From NCBI GenBank assembly GCA_944363605.1, contig CALVUM010000013.1, positions 1-44,226 of the forward strand: a stretch of DNA of 44,226 nucleotides, written 5' to 3'. A program made the position numbers and the translations under genes. The notes beneath the pieces are model-generated. The model made no database searches and was not told where the DNA came from. It saw only the letters and a program-made list of their open reading frames with translations. The stretch comes from an uncultured Bacilli bacterium. Lineage in GTDB: Bacteria; Bacillota_I; Bacilli_A; RF39; UBA660. Below, piece by piece: positions 20,635 through 30,455 of the stretch (within the stretch, counting starts at the first letter, position 1; every line of letters starts with the position of its first letter).

Positions 20635-20640
20635 AGTCAT

Positions 20641-20841
20641 GTAAAGCAATGAAAAAGAGGAGTAAAAATATTTCTTTTTAAAAGAGAGTCTATGGTAGGT
20701 GAAAATAGATAAAAGAATATTTTGAAGAAACTTTGGAGTTGAAGTTAAGGTAAATTAACTTTCGAAGTGCTCACGTTACGAGTTAAGAGAAAAAAATAAG
20801 GTGGTACCACGAATGATTCGTCCTTTGGGTATTGCCTTTTT
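20641..20841 (+). promoter_or_regulatory. T-box riboswitch leader of gltX
   Basis: The conserved T-box sequence AAGGTGGTACCACG is at 20798-20811. Upstream, AGAGAG...GGTAGGTGAAAA (about 20683-20704) fits the distal part of stem I, and a GAA triplet at about 20727-20729, before ACTTTGGAG, is the likely Glu specifier codon. The terminator form pairs GGTGGTACC (20800-20808) with GGTATTGCC (20828-20836), 9 bp with G-T pairs, followed by five T. Uncharged tRNA-Glu would favour the antiterminator and expression of glutamyl-tRNA synthetase. The gap 20610-20865 contains nothing else. Confidence 0.9.
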
Positions 20842-20865: not shown

Positions 20866-22512
20866 ATGACAAGAGAAGAATTTGCAGATATTTTGCTTCC
20901 GAATGTGAAGCATACAAGAGCTTATTATGAAGAAAAATATGGGAAAAGAAATTTAAAAGATGGGGCAATGGTCACAAGACTTGCACCAAGCCCTACTGGA
21001 TTTGTGCATATTGGTTCTTTATATCAAGCAGTGGCTGCCCAAAAGCTTGCTCATCAAAGTGGTGGAGTTTGCTATTTACGTATTGAAGATACTGATCAAA
21101 AAAGGGAAGTTGAAAATGGTATAGAGCAGATTATCGCTTCTTTAAAAAAATATGATGTACAATTTGATGAAGGACCATTAGCTGATGGAGAAGACGTAGG
21201 AGCTTACGGTCCTTATATCCAAAGTAAGCGTAAGGATATTTACCAAGCTTTTGTTAAAGATTTACTGATAAAAGATTTAGCTTATCCTTCATTTTTAACC
21301 GAAGAGGAAAAAGAAAAGATAACAGAACAACAAAAGAAAATTAAATCTCGAATTGGGTATTTCGGGCCATGGGCTAGTGCAGAACGAAACATGAGTATGG
21401 AAGAAGCTATAGAAAAAGTACGTGCCGGTGTTCCTTATGCAATTCGCTTAAAAAGTCAAGGAAATTTTTTAAGAAGAGTAGTTGTTAAAGATTGTATTAA
21501 AGGAGAAATTTCTTTGCCTGAGAATGATATGGATCATATTTTATTAAAACAGGATGGAATTCCAACTTATCATTTTGCTCATGCGGTTGATGATACTCTA
21601 ATGCATACAACGCATGTAACTCGTGGAGATGAGTGGGTTAGTAGTTTGCCGTTTCATATTGAACTTTTCGCTGCTTTAGGGTATGAATTACCTAAATATG
21701 CTCATTTGGCGACGATTCAAAAAGAAGAAGATGGTAAAAAAAGAAAGATTAGTAAAAGAAAAGATCCAGAAGCCAATGTTTTATATTATATTGATAAAGG
21801 AATTCCAGTTAAGGCTGTTGAAATTTATTTAATGACGCTTTTAAATTCCAATTTTGAAGAATGGTTTTTAGATAATCCTAATAAGGATTTATCAGAATTT
21901 ACAATGGAATTTAGTAAAATGAGTACAAGTGGAGCTTTATTTGACATGGAAAAACTCTTAAATATCTCTAAAAATTATATCAGTAGTTTATCTGCTTTAG
22001 AAGTTTATCAAAATACTTTAGAATGGGCTAAAGAATATGATAAAGAATTTGCTGATTTATTAGTACGAGAAAAAGATGTAGCTATTCAGACATTAAATAT
22101 TGAAAGAGAAAGTGAAAAACCACGTAAAGACTTTGCAATGTATAGCGAGGTTAAGCAAAATATTTGGTATATGTTTAAAGAAAATTTTGAGAGTGTTTCT
22201 TATGATTTTCAAAAAATTACCGATTTAGATGAAATCAAGCATATCTTACAAGTTTATTTAGATAAATATTATGATATTAATGATGATAATGAAGAGTGGT
22301 TTAATAAGGTAAAACTTTTATGTGATGAATTAGGATATGCAACAAATATGAAAGAATATAAGAAGAATCCTGAAAACTATAAAGGAAATGTTGCAGATGT
22401 ATCCACGGTTATTCGAGTTGCTTTAACAACTAGTTCAAGAACTCCTAATTTAAAAGATATTATGGAAATTTTAGGAATAGATGAAATAAAAAGAAGAATA
22501 AATATGCTTTAA
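20866..22512 (+). CDS. gltX: Glutamyl-tRNA synthetase, 548 aa
   Basis: A class I synthetase that charges tRNA-Glu. The HIGH-like motif is PSPTGFVHIGSLYQA (about residues 43-57), LRIEDTDQ follows, and the KMSKS-like loop is KRKISKRKDPEA. The N-terminal extension of about 38 residues before the HIGH region and the total length of 548 are longer than the classic 470-490 and fit a longer form seen in some Firmicutes. The upstream T-box with a GAA specifier supports Glu rather than Gln specificity. A GAAGG site precedes the ATG. A bidirectional terminator follows. Confidence 0.95.
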   Translation: MTREEFADILLPNVKHTRAYYEEKYGKRNLKDGAMVTRLAPSPTGFVHIGSLYQAVAAQKLAHQSGGVCYLRIEDTDQKREVENGIEQIIASLKKYDVQFDEGPLADGEDVGAYGPYIQSKRKDIYQAFVKDLLIKDLAYPSFLTEEEKEKITEQQKKIKSRIGYFGPWASAERNMSMEEAIEKVRAGVPYAIRLKSQGNFLRRVVVKDCIKGEISLPENDMDHILLKQDGIPTYHFAHAVDDTLMHTTHVTRGDEWVSSLPFHIELFAALGYELPKYAHLATIQKEEDGKKRKISKRKDPEANVLYYIDKGIPVKAVEIYLMTLLNSNFEEWFLDNPNKDLSEFTMEFSKMSTSGALFDMEKLLNISKNYISSLSALEVYQNTLEWAKEYDKEFADLLVREKDVAIQTLNIERESEKPRKDFAMYSEVKQNIWYMFKENFESVSYDFQKITDLDEIKHILQVYLDKYYDINDDNEEWFNKVKLLCDELGYATNMKEYKKNPENYKGNVADVSTVIRVALTTSSRTPNLKDIMEILGIDEIKRRINML

Positions 22513-25698: not shown

Positions 25699-26847
25699 AT
25701 GGCAAATCGAATTATCTTAAATGAAACATCTTATTTTGGATGGAACGCTAGAGAAAATTTAGTGCCTGAAATTAAAAGAAGAAAGTTTCAAAAGATTTTA
25801 GTCGTAACAGATGAGACACTCATGGAGTGTGGAGTTGCCAAAAAAGTACTTGATTTACTTGATGATGCTCATATCGAGTATCAAGTATTTGACAAAGTAA
25901 AACCGAATCCAACGATTAAAAATTGTCACGATGGAATTAAAGTTTGTCAAGACTTTGGTGCTTCAGCCATTGTTTCTGTGGGTGGCGGATCTGTTATCGA
26001 TACAGCCAAATGTATTGGGATAGTAATAGAAAATCCAGAATTCTATGATATTAATTCATTAGAAGGTGTGGCGGATACAAAGAACCGTTCATTACCAATA
26101 ATCGCGTTACCAACTACGGCTGGAACTGCTGCTGAAGTAACCATTAATTACGTGATTACTGATGAAGAAAATGTTGTAAAACGAGTTTGTGTTGATCCAA
26201 ATGACATACCAGTATTATCAATTATTGATACAGAACTCATGTCTGGAATGCCTAGGTTAACGGCAGCTTCAACTGGACTTGATGCACTTACCCATGCGAT
26301 GGAAGGATATATTACGGCATCTCATTGGGAAATGACGGATATGTTTCATTTAAAAAGCATGGAGCTAACGTATAAGAACTTAGAAAAAGCAGTTTTAAAA
26401 GACAAAGAGGCTATGGATAAAATGGGACTTAGCCAATACATTGCTGGTATGGGATTTTCAAATGTCGGACTAGGAATTGTTCACTCGATGGCTCATCAGC
26501 TTGGCGCGACTTACGATGTTCCGCATGGAATTGCTTGTGCTCTTTTCTTACCATATGTTTTGGAATGGAATGGCGAAGTAGTTAAAGAAAGATTTCCAGC
26601 TATGGCAAAATCTTTTGGATTTGATGTAACGGGTAAAACAGATGAAGAGTGTGTTTCTCTAGTTGTTGAAGCAGTAAGGTCATTAGAGAGAAATTTGGAA
26701 GTTCCTATGCATTTAAGTGAATTAAATGTATCAAAAGAAGACTTCGATGTATTAGCTACAAAAGCTTTAAAAGACCCATGTACTGGTGGAAATCCAAGAA
26801 GTGTTACAAAAGAAGATATTCTAGCTTTATTAGTAAAAGCATATTAA
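25699..26847 (+). CDS. fucO: Lactaldehyde reductase / 1,2-propanediol oxidoreductase (iron-dependent ADH), 382 aa
   Basis: A group III iron-containing alcohol dehydrogenase that reduces lactaldehyde to 1,2-propanediol with NADH, or the reverse. The start MANRIILNETSYFG and the blocks PTTAGTAAEVTINYVITDEE, VDPNDIP, STGLDALTHAMEGYIT, AGMGFSNVGLGIVHSMAH and DPCTGGNPR follow E. coli FucO closely. The NAD-binding GGGS is at about 95-98, and iron ligands are D195, H199, H262 and H276. ATG 25699 is preferred over an in-frame ATG at 25687, which overlaps the GGAGG site. It leads an operon with a FIST protein and an aldehyde dehydrogenase, but no fucose or rhamnose isomerase, kinase or aldolase genes are in the window, so the aldehyde source is unknown. 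Confidence 0.92.
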   Translation: MANRIILNETSYFGWNARENLVPEIKRRKFQKILVVTDETLMECGVAKKVLDLLDDAHIEYQVFDKVKPNPTIKNCHDGIKVCQDFGASAIVSVGGGSVIDTAKCIGIVIENPEFYDINSLEGVADTKNRSLPIIALPTTAGTAAEVTINYVITDEENVVKRVCVDPNDIPVLSIIDTELMSGMPRLTAASTGLDALTHAMEGYITASHWEMTDMFHLKSMELTYKNLEKAVLKDKEAMDKMGLSQYIAGMGFSNVGLGIVHSMAHQLGATYDVPHGIACALFLPYVLEWNGEVVKERFPAMAKSFGFDVTGKTDEECVSLVVEAVRSLERNLEVPMHLSELNVSKEDFDVLATKALKDPCTGGNPRSVTKEDILALLVKAY

Positions 26848-26861
26848 AAGGAGTGAAAAAA

Positions 26862-28034
26862 ATGTTAAAAACAAAAGTAGGATATAGTGAAAATGTTGAT
26901 GCATACGCATCTGGTGTTGAAACAGCCAAAATGGCAAATGTGATAGAAAATCCACAAGTAGGACTTTTCTTTACGAGCTGTGTTCAAGACCAACAAAAAT
27001 TAATGGAAGGTGCAAAAAGCGTTTTAGGTAATGTTCCAATTATTGGATGTACGTCTTCTGCAGCTTTATGTACACAAGACGGATATTTAAACAAGGAGAC
27101 TGGATATTCTGGAATGATGTTATTTGGAGGAGATTTAGAAGTTGTTACAGCTGGCTCCAAAAAGACCGATGAATCACCTCGTGAAATTGGGGCTCGTATT
27201 GCTAAAGAAGCTATTTCTAAAGTAAAGGGGCAAGATAAAGAACCAGATTTCTTCTTTATGACAGCATCTCCTGCGAATGAAGAAGATTACATGAAAGGAA
27301 TTCAAGATGTTATTGGGAATATTCCAGTTTTTGGTGGAAGTGCTGCTGATAACACCGTTGAAGGAAAATGGAGTATTTTGTGTGATGGTGAATCTTTCGC
27401 TGATGGTGTAGCTATTGCTATTTTCTATACCGATGGAAAAATGAAAAATATTTATACAGGTGCCTATCATGAAACAGAAAATGTTGGTGTTATCACGAAA
27501 ATTAATGGCGATCGTACCTTAGTAGAAATTGATCATGAACCAGCTTTAAAGAAATATGCTGAGTGGACTGGTAAAGATGTAGAATCTTTAAAAGGAAATA
27601 ACTTACTAACAGAAACTATCTGTGCTCCATTAGGTGTAAAAGATCCAATTGGTAAAGTTACAGCTGTTCGTCATCTGATGTTTGGTAACGAGGATTATTC
27701 CATGAATATTGGAGCCAATTTAGCTGTTAATACGGCAGTAATTCAACTTGCTAATAGTCCAGAAGGAATTTTAAAAGCCAATGCCGAAGCGATTTCTTCT
27801 TTAAATACGTTAATGAATAATGAAGAAAAATCTTATTTCTTAGTTCACTGTGGTGGACGTCGTCTAGGACTTGCTTTATCAGAAATTGAAGATCAAATTT
27901 ATCCAGAAGTGAAAAAAGCCATTCCAGATAAAGAATTCTTAATGGTATTTACTTTTGGTGAATATGGTTCAGGCGATCATTCATCTAACACGGTTGGTGG
28001 ATTATCTTTATCTTATACAGGATTTGGAGAATAA
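26862..28034 (+). CDS. FIST-domain protein (FIST_N + FIST_C), stand-alone, 390 aa
   Basis: Contains the two halves of the FIST sensory module: an N-terminal part with VGLFFTSCVQDQQ..., IIGCTSSAALCTQDGY and PVFGGSAADN, and a C-terminal part with APLGVKD, NIGANLAVNTAVIQLANSP and LVHCGGRRLGLA, ending in TFGEYGSGDHSSNTVGGLSLSYTGFG. FIST domains are predicted small-ligand sensors, usually joined to or beside histidine kinases, chemoreceptors or diguanylate cyclases. Here there is no output domain and no signal peptide, and the gene sits 14 nt after fucO and 3 nt before an aldehyde dehydrogenase. A ligand-binding or metabolite-handling role tied to aldehyde metabolism is inferred. ATG 26862 follows AAAAGGAG; the longer frame overlaps fucO and is rejected. 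Confidence 0.88.
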   Translation: MLKTKVGYSENVDAYASGVETAKMANVIENPQVGLFFTSCVQDQQKLMEGAKSVLGNVPIIGCTSSAALCTQDGYLNKETGYSGMMLFGGDLEVVTAGSKKTDESPREIGARIAKEAISKVKGQDKEPDFFFMTASPANEEDYMKGIQDVIGNIPVFGGSAADNTVEGKWSILCDGESFADGVAIAIFYTDGKMKNIYTGAYHETENVGVITKINGDRTLVEIDHEPALKKYAEWTGKDVESLKGNNLLTETICAPLGVKDPIGKVTAVRHLMFGNEDYSMNIGANLAVNTAVIQLANSPEGILKANAEAISSLNTLMNNEEKSYFLVHCGGRRLGLALSEIEDQIYPEVKKAIPDKEFLMVFTFGEYGSGDHSSNTVGGLSLSYTGFGE

Positions 28035-28037
28035 TTT

Positions 28038-29474
28038 ATGGCAAAGAATTTAATTGGCGAAAATTGGTGTGATGCTTCAGACGGAAGAACCATTAAAATT
28101 ACAAATCCAGCTACCAATGAGCTTATTGATACAGTCCCTGAAAGCAATAAATTAGATTGTGATAAGGCCGTTGAAGCTGCGTATGTAGCTCAAAAAGAAT
28201 GGGCTAAAAAACCTGTTCATGAAAGAGCGAGCATTTTAATGAAATTCGTGTCTATTGTTGAAAGTCATAAAGATGAACTTGCCAAGCTTTTAAGTGATGA
28301 GACAGGAAAGCCAATTAGTGAAGCTATTGGCGAAATTGCAAATGTTTCTATTGGTGTTCCAGCTTTTTGTGAAAAAGCTAAACACGAATATGGAATGGTT
28401 TTTGAAGGAAGTAAGGAAAAAGGCCAAGAACATCATCTTTACTATACAGTTCAAGCTCCTCTTGGAGTAGTAGTTGCTGTTATTCCTTTTAACTTTCCGA
28501 GTGACTTATTTTGTCAAAAAGTTCCTGCTGCATTACTTATGGGAAACACAGTCATTTTAAAACCATCTGCTCATAATCCGCTTACATTAACGAAATACGT
28601 TGAGTATTTATTAGAAGCTGGTGTACCAGGTGGAGCTATTAATTTAATTAATGGAAGTGGCGGTGAAGCTGTTCAAGCAATGGCTGAAAATCCAAAAGTT
28701 TCTTTAGTTACTCTAACAGGAAGTACTAAAGCTGGTGCGGAAACAATGGCAAAATGTGCGAAAAATATCACTCATGTTATGTTAGGATTAGGTGGAAACG
28801 ATGCCTTTATTTTACATAAAGATGGCGATATTGATTTAGCTGTAGAAGAAACCGTTTGGGGTCGTTTATACAACACTGGTCAAGTTTGCTGTGCATCAAA
28901 ACGTTTCTTGGTTCATAAAGATGTCAAAGAGGCTTTTGTTGAAAAATTGAAAAAAAGATTAGAAGGGATACCTGTTCGAATGCCAAGTAATCCGGAAGCA
29001 AAAATTGGTTGCTTAATTAGCGAGGATGCAGCCAAGAAAGTAGAGTCACAAGTAAATGATATGGTGGCACTAGGAGCAAAAGTGGTTTTTGGTGGTCGAA
29101 GAAAGGGAGCTTTCTATGAACCAACAATTTTAGTAGACATAACAAAAAATATGCCTGTAGCCAAAGATGAAGAAATCTTTGGACCAGTTATTTCTATCAT
29201 TGAATATGAAGATTTAGATGAGGCAATTTCGATTGCTAACCAATCAAGTTATGGATTATGTGGTTGTATTGTTTCAGAAAGTCAAAAGACTTGTCAATAT
29301 GTTGCTGAAAAATTAGAATGTGGCGGTGTCGTTATTAATGGTGCTTCATTCTTTAGACCATTTGAAATGCCATTTGGTGGTTGGAAACATTCTGGTACAG
29401 GTAATGAAGGCGTTTCTTCAACACTTCATGAAATGTCTAGAACAAAAACAATTGTTATGAAAAATATTTTATAA
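28038..29474 (+). CDS. Aldehyde dehydrogenase family protein lacking the general-base Glu, 478 aa
   Basis: An NAD(P)-dependent ALDH fold of normal length. Conserved parts are PFNFPSDLF..KVPAALLMGNTVILKPS (Asn152 for the oxyanion hole), LTGSTKAG, the nucleophile C284 in NTGQVCCASKRF, EEIFGPVISI and PFGGWKHSG. The motif that normally reads ELGGK, supplying the hydrolytic base Glu, here reads G250-L-G-G-N. ALDHs without that Glu include CoA-acylating types such as methylmalonate-semialdehyde dehydrogenase, so an acyl-CoA-forming or slow hydrolytic reaction is possible (inference). It is the third gene of the fucO-FIST operon, so lactaldehyde or a related small aldehyde is a likely substrate. A terminator follows. 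Confidence 0.88.
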   Translation: MAKNLIGENWCDASDGRTIKITNPATNELIDTVPESNKLDCDKAVEAAYVAQKEWAKKPVHERASILMKFVSIVESHKDELAKLLSDETGKPISEAIGEIANVSIGVPAFCEKAKHEYGMVFEGSKEKGQEHHLYYTVQAPLGVVVAVIPFNFPSDLFCQKVPAALLMGNTVILKPSAHNPLTLTKYVEYLLEAGVPGGAINLINGSGGEAVQAMAENPKVSLVTLTGSTKAGAETMAKCAKNITHVMLGLGGNDAFILHKDGDIDLAVEETVWGRLYNTGQVCCASKRFLVHKDVKEAFVEKLKKRLEGIPVRMPSNPEAKIGCLISEDAAKKVESQVNDMVALGAKVVFGGRRKGAFYEPTILVDITKNMPVAKDEEIFGPVISIIEYEDLDEAISIANQSSYGLCGCIVSESQKTCQYVAEKLECGGVVINGASFFRPFEMPFGGWKHSGTGNEGVSSTLHEMSRTKTIVMKNIL

Positions 29475-29484
29475 AAAGAAAAAA

Positions 29485-29509
29485 AGTTGCTTATTAAGCA
29501 GCTTTTTTT
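29485..29509 (+). terminator. Terminator of the fucO operon
   Basis: AGTTGCTT (29485-29492) pairs with AAGCAGCT (29496-29503) with one G-T pair, 3-nt loop, then seven T. It isolates the following small locus from the operon. Confidence 0.85.
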
Positions 29510-29538: not shown

Positions 29539-29547
29539 TGTTATAGT
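29539..29547 (+). promoter_or_regulatory. Extended -10 promoter of the small-peptide transcript
   Basis: TGT-TATAGT with TATAGT at 29542-29547; a TTGATT at 29517-29522 is a weak -35 at 19-nt spacing. The predicted start near 29554 puts GGATATATCTGA at the very 5' end of the RNA. Confidence 0.55.
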
Positions 29548-29554
29548 AATACTT

Positions 29555-29780
29555 GGATATATCTGAAACATCAGGTGCTTATCCCTTTTAAAAGAATAGA
29601 AGGGATGTGATAAGTATGAGAAAACAAGAAAAATTCTTAAATTGCATCATATTTATCTTATTATTTATTATAATTATTTTATTAATGAAATAAATAAAAG
29701 CATCTGATTCAACATGTGTTGATTCAGATGCAAAACCAAAATAAATGGGATAGCATCTGATTCTCCCTTCAGATATATCC
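29555..29780 (+). repeat. Long-range inverted repeat joining transcript 5' and 3' ends
   Basis: GGATATATCTGA (29555-29566) is perfectly complementary to TCAGATATATCC (29769-29780), just before the final T run. Adjacent bases (TCAGGTGCTTATCCC versus the reverse of GGGATAGCATCTGATT) extend the similarity. Inside lie a 15-bp hairpin with one T-T mismatch (29700-29714 with 29717-29731) and the SD-blocking stem 29582-29590/29597-29605. Confidence 0.85.
29616..29693 (+). CDS. 25-residue hydrophobic membrane peptide (type I toxin candidate)
   Basis: The peptide has a basic start MRKQEKF, then about 17 strongly hydrophobic residues (Ile/Leu/Phe-rich, 8-24) and a final Lys, a single membrane helix. 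This is the usual shape of type I toxins, which depolarise or disturb the membrane, though the sequence matches no named family I can recall. The ribosome-binding region AAGGGATGTGAT resembles AAGGAGGTGAT but its AAGGGA (29600-29605) is buried in a 9-bp stem with 29582-29590, so translation should be inefficient without refolding. The ORF is the only one in a transcript bounded by promoter 29539-29547 and terminator 29748-29786. A leader peptide or random ORF cannot be excluded. Confidence 0.6.
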   Translation: MRKQEKFLNCIIFILLFIIIILLMK

Positions 29781-29808
29781 TTTTTTAATATATGTCATTT
29801 TCTTTGAC
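29688..29808 (-). ncRNA. Predicted antisense RNA (antitoxin candidate), about 120 nt
   Basis: Transcription from the minus-strand promoter 29843-29815 would start near G29808 and run through the complement of the peptide gene's terminator and 3' UTR. A hairpin (29731 to 29700) followed on that strand by TTTTATTTATTT would end it near 29688. It would share about 100 nt of perfect complementarity with the 3' part of the peptide mRNA, up to the stop codon. This convergent 3'-overlap layout is known from Bacillus txpA/RatA and bsrG/SR4. Evidence is sequence only. Confidence 0.55.
29748..29786 (+). terminator. Terminator of the small-peptide transcript
   Basis: GGATA-GC-ATCTGA (29748-29760) pairs with TCAGAT-A-TATCC (29769-29780), leaving a small internal loop and an 8-nt apical loop, followed by six T. 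Confidence 0.8.
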
Positions 29809-29814
29809 GTATTC

Positions 29815-29843
29815 ATTATATCAATTTTTTTCTTCTTTTTCAA
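29815..29843 (-). promoter_or_regulatory. Antisense promoter
   Basis: On the minus strand TTGAAA (29843-29838), a 17-nt spacer and TATAAT (29820-29815), with TG at the extended position. It is a near-perfect sigma-A promoter with no gene downstream on that strand other than the predicted antisense RNA. Confidence 0.8.
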
Positions 29844-29927: not shown

Positions 29928-30455
29928 ATGGATTGGTTAGGAATTAAAGAATTTTTAAAAGATTCATTTAAATTGATTCTATTTATTATAGTTTTATTGT
30001 TTATAATGGTCTATGTTTTTTCAATGACTCAAGTAGTAGGAGATTCAATGTCACCAACTTTAATTGATGAAGAGGTTTTATTTTTAAATAAAGTGCAATA
30101 TCGTTTTTTTGATGTAAAGCGTGGAGATATTATTTCATTAGAATATGCAGATACGAAATATTTAATTAAAAGGGTAGTTGGGTTACCTGGAGAAAAAATA
30201 GAAATAAAAGATAATCAAGTATATATAAATGATGAGTTGTTAGAAGAAGACTATTTAGAAGAGGCTTTGCTTTATGGCGACTTTTCTTTAAAAACAATTG
30301 GTTATGAAACTATTCCAGAAAACATGTATTTTGTTTTAGGAGACAATCGGGAAAATTCGATGGATAGTAGAGAAATAGGATTAGTTTCTCAAGAACAAAT
30401 TAAAGGCAAAGTTATTATGCGTTTTTGGCCTTTAAATAAAATTAAATTTTTTTAA
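29928..30455 (+). CDS. lepB: Signal peptidase I, 175 aa
   Basis: Removes Sec and Tat signal peptides at the outer face of the membrane. One N-terminal membrane helix (about 13-32) precedes the catalytic domain. The Ser-Lys dyad is S40 (GDSMSPTL) and K81 (LIKRVVGLPGE), with box E as YFVLGDNRENSMDSREIG. This is a typical short Gram-positive SipS-type enzyme. GAGGG lies upstream of the ATG. The neighbouring large secreted protein, which has its own promoter, has a signal peptide of the kind this enzyme cuts. Confidence 0.95.
   Translation: MDWLGIKEFLKDSFKLILFIIVLLFIMVYVFSMTQVVGDSMSPTLIDEEVLFLNKVQYRFFDVKRGDIISLEYADTKYLIKRVVGLPGEKIEIKDNQVYINDELLEEDYLEEALLYGDFSLKTIGYETIPENMYFVLGDNRENSMDSREIGLVSQEQIKGKVIMRFWPLNKIKFF

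Follow-up and report, generated by a model that had tools for sequence, protein, structure and literature searches.

A multi-copy candidate type I toxin-antitoxin module with a predicted end-to-end messenger RNA fold in uncultured gut Bacilli

A contig of 44,226 nucleotides (nt) from an uncultured Bacilli bacterium (GenBank assembly GCA_944363605.1, contig CALVUM010000013.1; the whole of this stretch is hereafter called the window) carries at positions 29539-29843 a unit that we consider likely to belong to an undescribed family of type I toxin-antitoxin modules; it would consist of a gene for a small, presumably toxic membrane peptide and a convergent gene for an antisense RNA. An earlier note on this DNA had proposed such a module of unfamiliar sequence, and the proposal is now supported by conserved convergent promoters, a predicted antisense RNA with conserved hairpins that overlaps the 3' part of the messenger RNA (mRNA), and a sequestered start codon. 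The sequence is unfamiliar to the databases as well: Rfam, Pfam, NCBIfam and PADLOC gave no significant match to the unit or to its peptide, and the family is apparently undescribed in these four collections. The data used here are sequences throughout, and the source genomes are fragmented metagenome-assembled genomes (MAGs). In total, 245 distinct copies of the unit were extracted, of which 173 are full length; many were gathered by a pattern of the 3' half, and the sample is accordingly biased towards copies in which this half is intact.

The open reading frame (ORF) of the window copy, which the earlier note had read as a membrane-helix peptide of 25 residues, is preceded by GAAGGGATGTGAT, with the Shine-Dalgarno (SD) site lying within a hairpin, and its reading frame is conserved in the family. 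An intact peptide of 15-34 residues and of one pattern, M-x-K/R-x-E/D followed by a hydrophobic helix and usually a K or R at the end, is encoded in 160 of the 173 full-length copies. Among 124 distinct peptides, every one has a positively charged residue at positions 2-4, 99% are acidic at position 5, and 85% have K or R among the last three positions. Fifty independent pairs of copies with 25 codons gave a ratio of nonsynonymous to synonymous change (pN/pS) of 0.25, their substitutions being distributed as 79/50/160 over the three codon positions. Judged by these substitutions, the peptide is under purifying selection. A chance ORF is ruled out by the conservation of the pattern, the low pN/pS and the bias among codon positions. 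The earlier note had said that homologues losing the ORF while keeping the RNA structure would refute its proposal; the opposite was found, both being conserved.

Promoters converge on the unit from both sides. On the minus strand, the consensus promoter named in the earlier note, TTGAAA-17-TATAAT with a TG extension (29843-29815), matches the consensus at 11 of 12 positions, while the plus promoter combines an extended -10, TGTTATAGT, with a weak -35; the start points that had been predicted, 29554 (+) and 29808 (-), fit these positions. A promoter scan of the window alone gave no more hits than chance would (4 found against 5.6 expected), and it is conservation over 159 copies that bears out both promoters. 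In 121 of these copies the sense -10 is an exact TATAAT (3 of 159 when shuffled), and TGn accompanies it in 83% of the copies (13% when shuffled). The antisense -10 is more varied, being exact in 39 of the 159, and it too has TGn, in 81% against 9% in shuffles; the antisense -35 averages 4.38 matches against 3.03, and the distance from the antisense -10 to a conserved GGATA is 34 or 35 nt in 149 copies. On these counts, both convergent promoters are conserved and selected for.

The two ends of the sense RNA, the second of which is formed by a hairpin plus T6 near 29786, are linked by an inverted repeat of 13 nt, GGATATATCTGAA/TTCAGATATATCC. This repeat, the SD hairpin, the buried start codon and the other copies were all absent from the earlier note. 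In a set of 72 copies with less than 85% identity, the 5' leader (29555-29585) pairs with the 3' segment 29747-29780 with a mean energy of -32.6 kcal/mol. Exchanging arms between distant copies of this set costs 16.5 kcal/mol and makes 97% of the pairings worse, as against 0.2-1.6 kcal/mol for control segments. In an alignment of 70 copies, 90.2% of the cells of the helix are paired, two-sided changes occur at 20 of its 26 pairs, and compensatory cells number 158, compared with 55.7 (sd 6.7) in shuffles; pairing falls to 35-52% (at most 52.5%) when the partner is slid along. The shuffle comparison can be inflated by shared ancestry, to a degree that the slide and swap comparisons cannot. Within the helix, G-U pairs exceed A-C mismatches by 134 to 60 (225 to 154 when shuffled), which mildly favours pairing as sense RNA. 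The window's own mRNA has a predicted fold of -80.8 kcal/mol (z -10.4), and the start codon has an unpaired probability of 0.0007 here and 0.08 in the family mean, as against an average of 0.40 in a comparison set of 25 other window genes.

The predicted antisense RNA likewise has a predicted fold (z -4.5 for the window copy), with a 5'-terminal stem-loop, a middle hairpin and a terminator hairpin. Across these three, compensatory cells number 158 against 55.3 in shuffles, so that the hairpins, like the end-to-end helix, covary. The RNAalifold consensus of the antisense alignment contained the middle hairpin only, and the other two were then tested as named structures. The 5'-terminal stem-loop has a mean of -5.2 kcal/mol over 72 copies (-0.8 when shuffled), and its location past the sense terminator is difficult to account for unless it belongs to an RNA of the minus strand. 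For the middle hairpin read in the antisense orientation, G-U pairs exceed A-C by 63 to 18 (shuffled 102 to 55), which suggests that pairing there matters on the antisense strand. The ending of the antisense RNA in a hairpin of its own, another claim of the earlier note, holds as a feature of the sequence, as UUUUAUUUAUUU follows the hairpin 29700-29731 on the minus strand. The features of the unit are listed in Table 1.

Table 1. Predicted features of the unit in the window.
Feature	Position	Strand	Basis or remark
Extended -10 of the toxin mRNA promoter, TGTTATAGT	29539..29547	+	Start near 29553-29555; kept across 159 copies
5' leader, GGATATATCTGAAACATCAGGTGCTTATCCC	29555..29585	+	Partner is the mRNA 3' end; near-identical to the 5' part of the antisense RNA
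SD hairpin, ATCCCTTTT..AGAAGGGAT, including the upstream half of the ribosome binding site	29581..29606	+	Swapped stems are worse than the own stem by about 1 kcal/mol
Presumed toxin, a membrane peptide of 25 residues, MRKQEKFLNCIIFILLFIIIILLMK	29616..29693	+	124 distinct family peptides; pN/pS 0.25
Hairpin common to both RNAs; antisense terminator	29700..29731	both strands	U-rich tail on minus strand; swap test
3' arm of the end-to-end helix and sense terminator, GGGATAGCATCTGA..TTCAGATATATCC + T6	29747..29786	+	Swap and covariation tests
Predicted antisense RNA (antitoxin), about 119 nt	29690..29808	-	Complementary to the mRNA over its last ~95 nt; fold z -4.5; covariance model R1
5'-terminal stem-loop of the antisense RNA, GUCAAAGAAAAUGAC	29794..29808	-	Leader folding over 72 copies
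Antisense promoter, TTGAAA-17-TATAAT with TG extension	29815..29843	-	Promoter scan and conservation across copies

From these features we infer how the module would be transcribed, how its peptide would act, and how the duplex would decay and the toxin be activated. Transcription from the plus promoter would yield a messenger of about 230 nt encoding a membrane peptide with a single helix, probably toxic once translated. With both ends paired, and with the ribosome binding site buried along with the start codon, this mRNA would be silent and long-lived. The convergent promoter would give the antisense RNA, which most likely pairs with the mRNA via hairpin loops, leading to cleavage of the duplex and removal of the messenger. 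In the Bacillus systems, the cleaving enzyme is RNase III. Should antisense synthesis stop, the stable mRNA would remain and could be opened, allowing the peptide to be made. Because the leader is near-identical to the 5' part of the antisense RNA, the two would compete for the same 3' segment of the mRNA, and their likeness may go back to an old inverted duplication. We put forward, tentatively and as something less than an even chance, that the unit represents a separate type I design, in which the mRNA carries as its leader an inverted copy of the antitoxin's 5' part; this built-in mimic would silence the mRNA in cis and the antitoxin itself would destroy it in trans, both acting on the same 3' segment, the family having expanded through one bacterial family with reduced genomes.

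Among its sequence features the unit has those general to type I modules, namely a selected small hydrophobic peptide and an overlapping antisense gene with a promoter and terminator. The earlier note had likened its layout to txpA/RatA and bsrG/SR4 of Bacillus subtilis, in which a short hydrophobic peptide is accompanied by a convergent antisense RNA to the 3' part of the mRNA that promotes decay of this mRNA (PMC6562991). The likeness holds for the short hydrophobic peptide and for the antisense RNA at the mRNA 3' part, but it is half the picture, since the end-to-end fold of the mRNA resembles hok and aapA1. In addition, the overlap is about 95 nt here as against 100-140 bp there, the end-to-end helix is conserved here, and the unit is chromosomal, multi-copy and in another lineage. 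As to homology with TxpA or BsrG, the peptide has no significant profile match in Pfam or NCBIfam, no direct alignment to either having been made. The aapA1 mRNA is closed by a long-distance interaction between its 5' and 3' ends (PMC6733600), and the same is stated for hok (Gultyaev 1997, as cited in PMC6733600). Unlike hok/Sok and aapA1/IsoA1, which share this fold-back of the toxin mRNA, the present unit has its antisense RNA at the mRNA 3' part, and folding predicts no opening upon 3' trimming; neither the Hok peptide family nor Sok RNA was matched in Pfam or Rfam. The par locus of pAD1, which encodes Fst, has a toxin RNA of about 230 nt, convergent promoters, an SD stem, a protected 5' end and repeats at both ends (PMC7472228). 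The predicted toxin RNA length, promoters, SD stem, protected 5' end and end repeats are alike here. However, the repeats of par are direct and give complementary RNAs, whereas those of the present unit are inverted, so that both RNAs start with similar sequence; the two RNAs of par share a bidirectional terminator, those of the present unit have separate ones; and the Fst peptide profile does not match the peptide.

The unit was matched in 60 of 99 related genomes, with up to nine copies per genome in the same genus; the genome of the window itself has three tandem copies on another contig, at 75-76% identity. A pattern scan of named genomes returned over 116 stretches, which come from Candidatus Ventrenecus avicola, Candidatus Ventrenecus stercoripullorum and many uncultured Bacilli MAGs; many of these MAGs originate from rabbit ('Lapin'), and others from chicken, goat and deer guts. 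Of 395 genomes of the class, the antisense covariance model matched 35, and all but one of these belong to the same bacterial family; in a sample of the phylum it matched 4 of 295 genomes, all in that family. The sole match outside it (L292, G245:C32) is unconfirmed, with no peptide ORF found adjoining. As far as these matches show, the unit hardly occurs outside a single bacterial family, the one to which Candidatus Ventrenecus belongs. Phage and plasmid records searched with the window sequence gave no match, nor did viral contigs searched with the exact pattern, which recovers only about half of the known copies.

Some copies depart from the common type. A diverged subfamily (L300-L303, L184, L199, L201) has peptides of the type MNKKDFLIFAL..., and its leader and 3' sequences differ, with ends that are still complementary. 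Locus L304 (G401:C4) has the same RNA layout, with a peptide that is possibly different or rearranged. Two antisense-like relics in the window's own genome, L297 (G000:C55:35745-35878) and L299 (G000:C17:7109-7224), have no adjoining peptide ORF, and their promoters or hairpins appear decayed, so that they are no clean case of orphan antitoxins.

Several observations weigh against a type I module in the form described. The ORF is broken in about nine full-length copies and absent from the two relics, and because such copies exist, not every copy can be active. In equilibrium folds of 70 copies, 3' trimming on average does not free the SD (mean unpaired probability 0.224 for the full and 0.227 for the trimmed RNA), and the activation route of hok and aapA1 is unsupported by this calculation; therefore, it may be folding in the course of transcription that matters, or else the fold would mainly shield the ends from nucleases. 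Lastly, the loops of paralogues within one genome are no more different than those of equally diverged copies elsewhere, and thus show no sign of selection against cross-talk.

Three other explanations were weighed. The unit could be a non-autonomous mobile element of the miniature inverted-repeat transposable element (MITE) kind, its inverted repeats being transposase sites and its peptide and promoters passengers. Such an element would account for the multiple copies with inverted repeats at several intergenic sites and in tandem, and for two species of the genus in which the same flanking genes lie 112 and 150 bp apart without the whole block, a third having several tandem units between them. 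Nevertheless, we regard it as highly improbable, as homology does not stop at the repeats but takes in both promoters and the hairpin of the antisense leader, purifying selection acts on the ORF, no target-site duplication was seen at the single site compared, and the G-U excess in the helix speaks mildly for pairing as sense RNA. A non-toxic small membrane peptide under antisense control, for example a modulator of a transporter or of a stress response, would suit the conserved K/R-x-E/D N terminus, which suggests a specific role, and is compatible with evidence drawn from sequence. The tandem multi-copy arrays, the presence and absence among close species and the very closed mRNA suit a toxin better, and we hold this alternative to be improbable. 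The remaining explanation overlaps with a type I module and concerns the fold-back only: gene conversion at the DNA level between the two arms would keep them alike, the fold-back itself having no function. In its favour, the promoters too are roughly mirror images, and profiles match the unit on both strands; yet the arms are not identical, their differences lean towards G-U over A-C relative to shuffles, and covariation is seen in the hairpins as well as in the long helix, which leaves gene conversion rather unlikely. A type I toxin-antitoxin module is the explanation that we prefer.

Elsewhere in the window, terminator 29479-29509 closes the aldehyde dehydrogenase gene (28038-29474) upstream of the unit (1 found, 0.1 expected in a terminator scan of the window), and the free-standing unit is followed by a signal peptidase I gene (29928-30455). 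The protein 26778-28034, adjoining the aldehyde dehydrogenase, has a weak likeness to the profile of the nitric oxide sensor NosP (83.6 bits, cut-off 450). A T-box leader (20640-20828, 107 bits) lies upstream of gene 20866-22512, which resembles glutamate--tRNA ligase just below the NCBIfam cut-off.

Type I modules are hard to find, since their toxins and RNAs diverge fast, and little is known of them outside a few model groups. If the present reading is true, the small-genome, uncultured gut Bacilli would possess a whole family of such modules, several per genome, in enough copies for selection on the peptide, the promoters and the RNA fold to be seen together. End-to-end closure of the mRNA has so far been described for hok and aapA1, and a copy of the antitoxin in the leader of the toxin mRNA would be a specific and testable proposal for how such closure may arise in Gram-positive relatives.
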